Shown here: in pieces, positions 26,851 through 31,197 of the stretch
Position numbering within the stretch: the stretch's first letter is position 1
How the letters are laid out: each line of letters begins with the position of its first letter
From: Planococcus sp. 107-1
GTDB taxonomy: Bacteria; Bacillota; Bacilli; Bacillales_A; Planococcaceae
DNA length: 64,000 nucleotides
Reading direction: 5' to 3'
Assembly (NCBI RefSeq): GCF_021513255.1
Contig: NZ_CP090977.1
Coordinates: 1,984,001 to 2,048,000 of the forward strand
Translations under genes and position numbers: made by a program
The notes under the pieces: generated by a model
The model's input: only the letters and a program-made list of their open reading frames with translations
Told to the model about the DNA's origin: nothing
Databases searched by the model: none

Positions 26851-27752
26851 TTAAGCACGAGGATGAAATTGCGTATATACGTCTTTTAATCTTGTTTTGC
26901 TGACATGCGTATAAATTTGTGTTGTAGAGATATCGGCATGGCCAAGCATTTCCTGAACTGCCCGCAAATCCGCACCATTTTCAATTAAATGAGTCGCAAA
27001 CGAATGCCTAAGCGTATGCGGCGTCAACTCTTTCTGGATGCCGGCTTTTTGGGCATGCTGCTTGAGCAGTTTCCAAAATCCTTGTCGAGTCAAGCGTTTC
27101 CCGCGTTGATTGATGAACAGCGCATCGGTTTTTGTTTCCGCTTTCACAAGTTCTTGGCGCGGTCCATCCAAATAAACTTTACAAGCACTTAAGGCTGATT
27201 TTCCCAATGGAATGATTCGTTCTTTCCCGCCTTTGCCAAAGCACCGGACAAATCCCATCGTCAGGTTGATGTCATCTATATTTAAATTTATGCATTCACT
27301 GACCGCATGCCGCTTCCATAGAGAAGTTCCAGCATCGCCTGGTCGCGGATTCCATTCGCTTTTTTTGTATCCGGCGCTTGGATCAACGCATCCACTTCTT
27401 CAATAGATAAGACGTTCGGCAATTTCTTATCCATTTGAGGCATTTCTAAATGGACGGTAGGATCGTTGTCGACTACCCGTTCTCTAATAAGAAATTGGTG
27501 GAATGACCGGATAGAAGAAATGTGGCGGGCAACGGTCCTAGACGTTTTCGTATTTTCTTTCAAATGGCGCAAATGGTTTAAGATATGTACGCGTTCCACT
27601 TTTCTTAAGGAATCCAATTGCTCGACTTCTTTTAAATAATGCAAATAGCTTTTTAAATCACGTTCGTAGGAAACCAGCGTATTCGCAGCCAGTTGGCGTT
27701 CTACCCGCAGGAAATGCAAATAATCGTCTAGCGCATCTTGTGCATATTTCAT
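26851..27752 (-). pseudogene. xerD: Site-specific tyrosine recombinase XerD, single-base frameshift
   Basis: Chromosome-dimer resolvase acting at dif with a XerC-type (CodV) partner. The first frame holds the SAM-like DNA-binding domain (DYLHFLRVERQLAANTLVSY) up to LLYGSGMR, the next frame resumes at about [17 protein letters not shown] and carries the catalytic part: [11 protein letters not shown] (R and H), [13 protein letters not shown] with nucleophile Tyr. One missing G near 27303 (CGGTC for CGGGTC) explains it; restoring it gives 300 residues. XerD is nearly always intact in this group, so an error is likely. Confidence 0.9.
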
Positions 27753-29969: not shown

Positions 29970-30574
29970 TCACTGTGAAGGCAGAAAGTCGTTTAAACAG
30001 TCAATTTTCAAAACCCAGCCTTTATAATACGTTTCTATTACTGTTACCGACAGTTTCGAATTTTGTATCAACGCTAGTGTATCCCGGTTTAAATGACAAC
30101 CGCCAAATGCTTTTTTCCAAAGCGGCGTCATCAAATCCTGTGCTTTTCCCATTATTGGCTGCGGCATCCGCACATGTTCAAGAAAAAGATCCTTGCACCA
30201 GGTTTCGCTACCCGCTGAATTTCCTCAAGCGCCTTTTGAGGATCAGGGATCGTACAAAATACGAGAGTCGCTACGACCGTATCAAACACATTCTCATTAA
30301 AGGGCAATTGTTCTGCTTTAGCAACATGGAGATGGATAGGCGCTTTTGCCATTTTGACTTGTTTGCGTGACCGGCTAACTCTTCTTTCATCCGGTTCAAT
30401 GGCATCTACGCTTAACGCATTTTTATAAAAAGGAAAGTTCGCTCCTGTGCCGGATCCAATTTCCAGCACATGGCCATAAGCATTTCCGCCGATTGCTGCT
30501 CTTAACTGAGTGATGCCTGTTTTCCTTGGAAGTTGATTTGAATGTCCGGCCTGGCTGCTATATTTTTCTTTCAT
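29970..30574 (-). pseudogene. Class I SAM-dependent methyltransferase, single-base frameshift
   Basis: UbiE/small-molecule type methyltransferase. The first frame holds SAM motif I VLEIGSGTGANFPFY, motif II-III (IEPDERRV, AEQLPFNENVFDTVVATLVF) and PGARIFFL, then breaks near 30179, where a missing G (TTGAAC for TTGGAAC) would restore EHVRMPQPIMGKAQ. The last part (WKKAFGGCHLNRDT ... YKGWVLKIDC) is typical of methyltransferases similar to those acting on phospholipids or quinones. Corrected length is 201. Substrate unknown. Confidence 0.8.
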
Positions 30575-30807
30575 CTCTTCCCCTTCTCTCTTTTTTCAGA
30601 AGCATGATCTGCCGATTTACACTGAATTTTATGCGTAGCATGAAATAAAAAAAAGTCTTTACGCTCGCCTGTTCAATAGGAGAAAAAAATTTTATGAAGC
30701 TATTGTCATCAAGATTCCCCTTCCCCTTAACCTCTAAACTGAATAAATGCATAGTTTAAAGTGAAATAGGGAAAATGCTTTAGAAGACAATATGGGAGGT
30801 GCAGCAA

Positions 30808-31134
30808 ATGGAAAAACTTATTACAGCAGAAGAAACTACAAATTTTATGAAGCAGCCCGGCTTGAATTTCCTTTATATCCTAAGCCCGTCCTGAAGTGTT
30901 TGCCATGCACTGCTTCCTCAGGTTGAGGAAGTGTTGAATGATTTCCCGAAAATCCAAACGAAAACGGTTGATGTAACGGATCAGCCAGAACTTGCTGGTC
31001 AACTATCGATCTTCACAGCACCTGTTTTACTGCTTTTTGATCAAGGATTGGAATTATTAAGAGAAGCACGATTTGTACATCTCCAAGAGCTCGAAAGAAA
31101 AATCGATAAAATCTATTGGTCTTATTATGGCTAA
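30808..31134 (+). pseudogene. Thioredoxin-like protein with in-frame TGA at the first CxxC position
   Basis: From ATG 30808 (GGGAGGT upstream) the frame reads MEKLITAEETTNFMKQPGLN, then FLYILSPS, TGA, SVCHALLPQVEEVLNDFP and continues to VHLQELERKIDKIYWSYYG at 31134. In thioredoxin-like relatives the TGA position would be the first Cys of a C-x-x-C motif (here TGA-S-V-C). The cis-Pro region FTAPVLLLF is present. So this is a 108-residue thioredoxin-fold protein broken by a nonsense codon, a sequencing error, or, less likely, a selenocysteine codon: an 8-bp hairpin with loop GGT lies 18 bases after the TGA (see findings). Confidence 0.7.
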
Positions 31135-31162: not shown

Positions 31163-31197
31163 AACCATCGACATTTTTATGTCGATGGTTTTTCTTT
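31163..31197 (+). terminator. Terminator of the thioredoxin-like gene
   Basis: Stem ACCATCGACAT / ATGTCGATGGT with T4 loop, followed by TTTTCTTTTC. Confidence 0.92.

Follow-up and report, generated by a model that had tools for sequence, protein, structure and literature searches.

The question raised by this locus is whether an in-frame TGA within an otherwise open thioredoxin-like frame marks a defective gene or a genuine selenocysteine (Sec) codon. The locus lies in what we call the window, the whole 64,000-nucleotide stretch of Planococcus DNA that was analyzed here. A preliminary description, made from the sequence alone, had noticed that the TGA falls on the first cysteine of a CxxC motif and is followed by a SECIS-like hairpin, but had considered an error or a nonsense mutation the most likely cause. 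The former observation stands, whereas the latter guess is refuted by the conservation of the codon in other genomes. As set out below, we regard it as almost certain that the gene encodes a Sec-containing thioredoxin-like protein, in which SelB and the hairpin would direct Sec to residue 29 and which would be recycled by thioredoxin reductase. Automatic annotation tends to shorten or drop genes of this kind, which contain an in-frame UGA.

Layout of the Gene and Its Hairpin

The features of the locus are collected in Table 1. The TGA at codon 29 is the only stop within the frame 30808-31134, which confirms the earlier remark that the frame is otherwise clean with TGA at the first cysteine of CxxC; the arrangement is functionally meaningful. 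The conserved Pro72 presumably occupies the cis-proline position of the thioredoxin fold. With a GGGAGG site before the ATG and a terminator-like hairpin after the gene (one found, compared with 0.4 expected from shuffles), the thioredoxin gene looks like a single-gene unit; a promoter scan around the gene returned a single site, on the - strand, and nothing promoter-like on the + strand.

Table 1. Coordinates of the features of the Sec gene, numbered from the first nucleotide of the window.
Feature	Position	Strand	Remarks
Thioredoxin-fold selenoprotein gene (predicted)	30808..31134	+	108 residues, Sec at position 29 (U-S-V-C-H), translated with TGA=U
UGA predicted to be read as selenocysteine (codon 29)	30892..30894	+	TGA in 20 distinct rows, TGC/TGT in 80
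Putative ribosome-binding site GGGAGG	30794..30799	+	8 nt before ATG, direct sequence reading
Resolving Cys codon TGC of the UxxC motif	30901..30903	+	C32 column invariant in the 21-row alignment A1
SECIS hairpin CTTCCTCA-GGT-TGAGGAAG	30913..30931	+	8-bp stem; apical loop 26 nt after UGA
Conserved Pro72 codon	31021..31023	+	P72 invariant in alignment A1
Terminator-like hairpin	31163..31190	+	12-bp stem, T-rich tail, 3' of the gene

A spacer of 18 nt separates the TGA from the start of the hairpin, whose arms CTTCCTCA (30913-30920) and TGAGGAAG (30924-30931) form a perfect stem of 8 bp around the loop GGT (30921-30923). This confirms the stem and the spacing given in the preliminary description, and RNA folding yields the same hairpin with one additional G-U pair. 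As a SECIS rule we applied a loop located 16-37 nt after the TGA, a loop size of 3-8 and a G in the first two bases. The hairpin lies directly 3' of the UGA and presents a G in its small apical loop, a feature of bacterial SECIS elements according to the available text of PMC1088965. Its folding stability by itself is only moderately unusual: the z-score is -2.14 relative to dinucleotide shuffles, and 5 of 200 shuffles fold equally well. On both strands of the 64-kb window, 14 TGA trinucleotides are accompanied by a perfect 8-bp stem at a SECIS-like distance; among these, solely the one at 30892-30894 resides in an open frame, that is, with at least 25 codons before and at least 60 codons after it.

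Elsewhere on the - strand of the window, a recombinase gene (26851-27752) and a methyltransferase gene (29970-30574) are each split over two frames, the former presumably a tyrosine recombinase. These split genes are consistent with indel errors in the assembly. The mention of many sequence errors in the preliminary description fits these split genes and the broken selB (see below), but the TGA at codon 29 is no such error.

Affiliation to the Thioredoxin Family

When cysteine is put in place of U, the protein matches PF00085 (Thioredoxin) with 32.4 bits, above the gathering cut-off of 23.5, and its predicted structure (mean pLDDT 87, pTM 0.79) adopts the thioredoxin fold: the 50 PDB rows listed, most of them thioredoxins or domains of that type, have query-normalised TM scores of 0.73 to 0.85. 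Together, the profile match and the predicted fold place the protein in the thioredoxin family. Moreover, the redox pair and the proline that characterize this family are present: U/C29, C32 and P72 show no variation among the 21 rows aligned. Canonical thioredoxin TrxA carries the motif WCGPC. The protein has SUSVCH in place of WCGPC and reaches only 31.5 bits against the cut-off of 96.8 for TIGR01068 (thioredoxin), which speaks against a canonical TrxA; judged by its motif, this U-S/G-V-C-H redoxin appears to stand apart from the WCGPC thioredoxins. By sequence, the nearest relative of solved structure is PDB 4euy, an uncharacterized protein of 105 aa (E 3e-25 to the profile), which matches profile positions 1-100.

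The genomic surroundings provide a candidate partner. At 4 of the 26 loci examined (G102, G082, G091 and G085), a gene resembling thioredoxin-disulfide reductase is located beside the Sec gene in divergent orientation, and the copy at L026 scores 391.7 bits against a cut-off of 343.45. Such a divergent thioredoxin reductase gene upstream of the Sec gene is seen at L023, L026, L053 and L054, all from Planococcus-group genomes. In the window and in G099, the neighbouring genes instead encode a long secreted protein and an aldo-keto reductase, and over the whole Sec set no conserved neighbour was found besides these. On account of the PF00085 match, the predicted fold and the adjoining thioredoxin reductase, we read the protein as a Sec thioredoxin that would be reduced by thioredoxin reductase.

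Conservation of the UGA among Relatives

When 261 genomes of the family were searched in six frames, 181 gave matches; among the matches listed, 15 genomes contain a TGA copy, with the TGA at the same codon in all of them, and one (G136) contains TAG. A profile search of 250 genomes across the order (E 1e-25), for which the matches listed come from genomes of the same family only, listed 57 matches, of which 42 lack a stop and 15 are the TGA copies already found. In the genome_contigs scan, 80 of 239 relatives were kept, comprising 14 loci with TGA, 38 with TGC and 28 with TGT. Nine of these TGA loci duplicate family genomes, and the five new hosts all belong to the Bacillaceae: Mesobacillus zeae, Alteribacillus persepolensis, Bacillus sp. 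FJAT-27251, Sediminibacillus massiliensis and a Salirhabdus. After 10 duplicates had been dropped, the comparison set consisted of 20 Sec rows and 80 Cys rows, so that the UGA is aligned to cysteine in 80 distinct rows. The comparison of orthologous codons that the preliminary description had proposed thus turns out clearly: TGA accompanied by an intact hairpin in 20 distinct sequences, TGC or TGT in the other 80. As the TGA is kept across relatives (15 of 261 genomes, among the matches listed), a chance origin of the TGA-hairpin combination is ruled out.

The protein on both sides of the UGA is conserved as well. Within alignment A1 (21 rows), V31, C32, H33, L36, P37 and Q38 are invariant. 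Nonsynonymous differences among the Sec rows average 0.33 ahead of the TGA and fall to 0.26 past the hairpin, the lower value indicating that the downstream protein is under selection; these values argue for purifying selection on either side of the UGA.

The hairpin distinguishes the two groups sharply: 7-8 of the 8 stem pairs are kept in all 20 Sec rows (8/8 in 13 rows, 7/8 in 7 rows) versus 0-6 of 8 in all 80 Cys rows. Synonymous differences among Sec rows average 0.19 at the hairpin codons (7-12 after the TGA), whereas the flanks reach 0.74 upstream of the TGA and 0.76 downstream of the hairpin; for 40 of the 80 Cys rows, the mean at the hairpin codons is 0.90. Leu36 is encoded by CTT and Gln38 by CAG in 20/20 Sec rows each, whereas Cys rows with the same residue agree in its codon in 20% (Leu36) and 50% (Gln38) of comparisons. 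Losses of stem pairs among the Sec rows concern the outer T-A pair in 2 rows and the innermost A-T pair in 4; in L104, the frame of which ends about 18 residues early, one inner pair is broken. The single compensatory pair among the Sec rows is found in G016, where G-C has replaced T-A; the substitution in one arm is synonymous, that in the other nonsynonymous. As many compensatory pairs arise in 27 of 500 shuffles. Taken together, these patterns show that the hairpin is under selection as RNA, for which the frozen codons speak strongly and the covariation weakly.

Selenocysteine Machinery and Its Distribution

The window's genome (G000) is a single contig of 3.5 Mb. The check for selA, selB, selC and selD proposed in the preliminary description is positive, with all four present. 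selA is intact and scores 562 bits (cut-off 267.9), tRNA-Sec reaches 65 bits (gathering score 47) and is also called by ARAGORN as tRNA-SeC with anticodon TCA, and selD attains 414.6 bits (cut-off 125). The selB gene at L051:5487-7521 is broken over three frames, with a main piece of 292.4 bits (cut-off 242.25) and two more pieces in other frames; these breaks are probably a sequencing or assembly error caused by base-calling indels.

The selD gene (G000:C1:3246843-3247892; L051:8844-9893) has one in-frame TGA as its 18th codon, within a GGUGC motif, and a hairpin, GGCGCAGGTTCTGCGCC, with the loop 33 nt after this TGA. By these features, selD of this genome would itself be a selenoprotein gene. 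SelD (G000:C1:3246864-3247793) resembles the thioredoxin gene in having an in-frame UGA followed by a hairpin with a CAGGTT top; it is a different protein, however, its loop is located 33 nt after the UGA rather than 26 nt, and the remaining stem is unrelated. When a covariance model was trained on the hairpins of 20 rows, including that of the window, it matched the thioredoxin gene in its own genome with E 2.6e-14 and nothing else there below E 2.6. As it missed the selD hairpin, the model is no test for further selenoproteins. Genes for a binding protein, a permease and an ATPase lie 3' of selD (L051:9987-12400); they resemble those of a phosphonate-type ABC transporter, for which a role in selenium uptake is possible.

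Other selenoprotein clients were sought in two families. Formate dehydrogenase alpha (TIGR01591) has no match in G000, and across 20 genomes 9 are over the cut-off, with best matches all devoid of an in-frame stop. AhpC/TSA (PF00578) gives 13 matches in G000, one of which contains both TGA and TAA and was taken as a broken gene.

The preliminary description had doubted that Planococcaceae use selenoproteins at all, and this doubt is answered by the presence of selA over the curated cut-off in 27 of 261 genomes of the family. selA was found in 14/15 TGA genomes versus 13/246 others (TGA among the matches listed; Fisher p 5e-15) and, in a second set, in 6/6 TGA versus 13/43 Cys genomes (Fisher 0.002), where both tests ignore shared ancestry and the second set overlaps the first by one of the six (G016) and one of the 43 (G090). 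With 13 of 43, selA is also common in the Cys-type genomes of the second set. A search for tRNA-Sec in 22 chosen genomes found 15 over the gathering score: all 13 TGA genomes of that list, G015 apart, as well as G095 and G080, both of which also possess selA.

G015 (L034, G015:C1:313887-314207), a one-contig genome, retains the TGA and the hairpin; it gave no selA match, and its best tRNA-Sec hit has 42.2 bits against the gathering score of 47. Because of this genome, the TGA and the machinery are imperfectly linked. Its gene may be an orphan, either recently acquired or decaying, or the assembly may be without a plasmid that belongs to it. Conversely, 13 of the 27 selA genomes of the family have no TGA copy among the matches listed, for example G095, G080, G104 and G109. 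In these four the best formate dehydrogenase match is free of in-frame stops, and selA genomes without the TGA thioredoxin may harbour another selenoprotein.

Alternative Explanations of the UGA

If the TGA were a sequencing error or a recent nonsense mutation in an ordinary CxxC thioredoxin, it would be in keeping with the frame errors elsewhere in the assembly, including the selB gene distributed over three frames. Yet 14 other genomes of the family and 5 further Bacillaceae genomes share this TGA, purifying selection acts on the part downstream of it, and the hairpin codons hardly vary at synonymous sites. The conservation of the TGA in other assemblies rules this explanation out, and we assign it a negligible probability. 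The UGA might also simply terminate translation, in which case the true product would be a peptide of 28 residues or, since a GTG-started frame does exist at 30931-31134, a protein of 67 residues. This is extremely improbable as well: the stretch from the UGA to the GTG specifies the V-C-H and L-L-P-Q block, which is conserved, there is also conservation in parts of the 28 codons before the UGA, and an internal product would be devoid of the redox motif. The internal start at GTG 30931 was rejected, with GTG present in only 4 of 20 Sec rows.

Readthrough without any Sec, in which a suppressor or near-cognate tRNA would place Trp or Cys at the UGA, would account for G015, which retains gene and hairpin with neither a selA match nor a tRNA-Sec over the gathering score. 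Against it, the homologues have Cys at this position, the hairpin is as expected for Sec insertion, another gene of this genome, selD, likewise combines a TGA with a hairpin topped by CAGGTT, and the TGA tracks selA. We consider such readthrough very unlikely and prefer insertion of Sec at residue 29.

Evolutionary History

In a midpoint-rooted tree of 100 rows, which is based on few columns and has many weak forks, the 20 Sec rows form a clade together with one Cys row (support 98/94), and the Sec/Cys label changes twice across the tree. The nested Cys row is that of Planococcus koreensis (G090; L032 / L059), which has TGC and 5/8 stem pairs and in whose genome we found neither a selA match nor a tRNA-Sec over the gathering score. 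The simplest reading of this tree would be one Cys/Sec switch at the base of the clade, followed by a Sec-to-Cys reversion and loss of the machinery in G090. Given the midpoint root and the modest support of the fork that holds G090 (83/58), the direction of change is an inferred one. A Sec clade that includes a Cys reversion in a selA-less genome constitutes a compact natural experiment on the cost versus the benefit of selenium.

Proposed Mechanism

Sequence comparison establishes that UGA and hairpin are conserved, that the genome has the Sec machinery and that purifying selection acts on either side of the UGA; from this we infer selenium insertion, redox activity and the reductase partner. 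SelB together with Sec-tRNA(UCA) would recognise the hairpin 18 nt past the UGA, and Sec would be inserted at residue 29 to give the U-S-V-C-H redoxin of 108 residues. In the next step, the selenol of U29 would attack a disulfide or another oxidised substrate, and C32 would resolve the resulting mixed selenenylsulfide. Finally, the Sec thioredoxin would probably be recycled by NADPH-thioredoxin reductase. As to its most likely role, we would guess at a general or a peroxide-linked disulfide reductase.

We also put forward, tentatively and with somewhat less than even confidence, a broader proposal: The U-S/G-V-C-H proteins may represent an undescribed, Bacillales-specific subfamily of Sec thioredoxins that works with the neighbouring thioredoxin reductase and, along with SelD, is one of the chief users of the Sec apparatus in some of these bacteria, and the reversion in P. 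koreensis together with G015 may show the loss of a selenoprotein in the act.

Comparison with Known Selenoproteins

UxxC Sec thioredoxins (Trx, PF00085) are an established selenoprotein family according to the available portions of PMC1794560, PMC1088965, PMC2398784 and PMC9312934. As far as the accessible text and tables of the 2006 survey PMC1794560 go, it counted 7 bacterial members, its Table 3 marks the hosts Geobacter, Anaeromyxobacter, Carboxydothermus and Treponema as anaerobic, and its Table 2 lists 3 selenoproteins for the Bacillales. The gene described here is unreported in the listed titles and abstract beginnings on selenoproteins of Planococcaceae, Planococcus, Sporosarcina, Bacillales and Bacillaceae, while supplementary tables may list it; the available parts of PMC1794560, PMC1088965, PMC5029168, PMC9312934, PMC2398784 and PMC6080646 make no mention of it, and the taxon names searched for are absent from PMC5330540. 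With this locus, a group that had few selenoproteins in the early survey (PMC1794560, as far as available), namely the Planococcaceae and some Bacillaceae, would gain a Sec-using genus and a candidate selenoprotein with good support.

The Cys-type thioredoxin-like proteins of the Bacillales belong to the same family over nearly the full length and share the V-C-H and L-L-P block with the Planococcus protein; they differ in having TGC or TGT at the attacking position, with no hairpin of at least 7 pairs in any of the 80 rows. What the Planococcus protein has in common with the known Sec thioredoxins is the thioredoxin fold, Sec in place of the first Cys of CxxC and a hairpin that follows the UGA directly within the coding sequence. 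It is set apart from them, on the basis of the descriptions and tables available in the above reports, by the motif U-S/G-V-C-H-x-L-L-P-Q and by its hosts. Judged by its sequence, we file the Planococcus gene as a probable addition to the known Sec-thioredoxin family, from whose described members it differs in motif and host.
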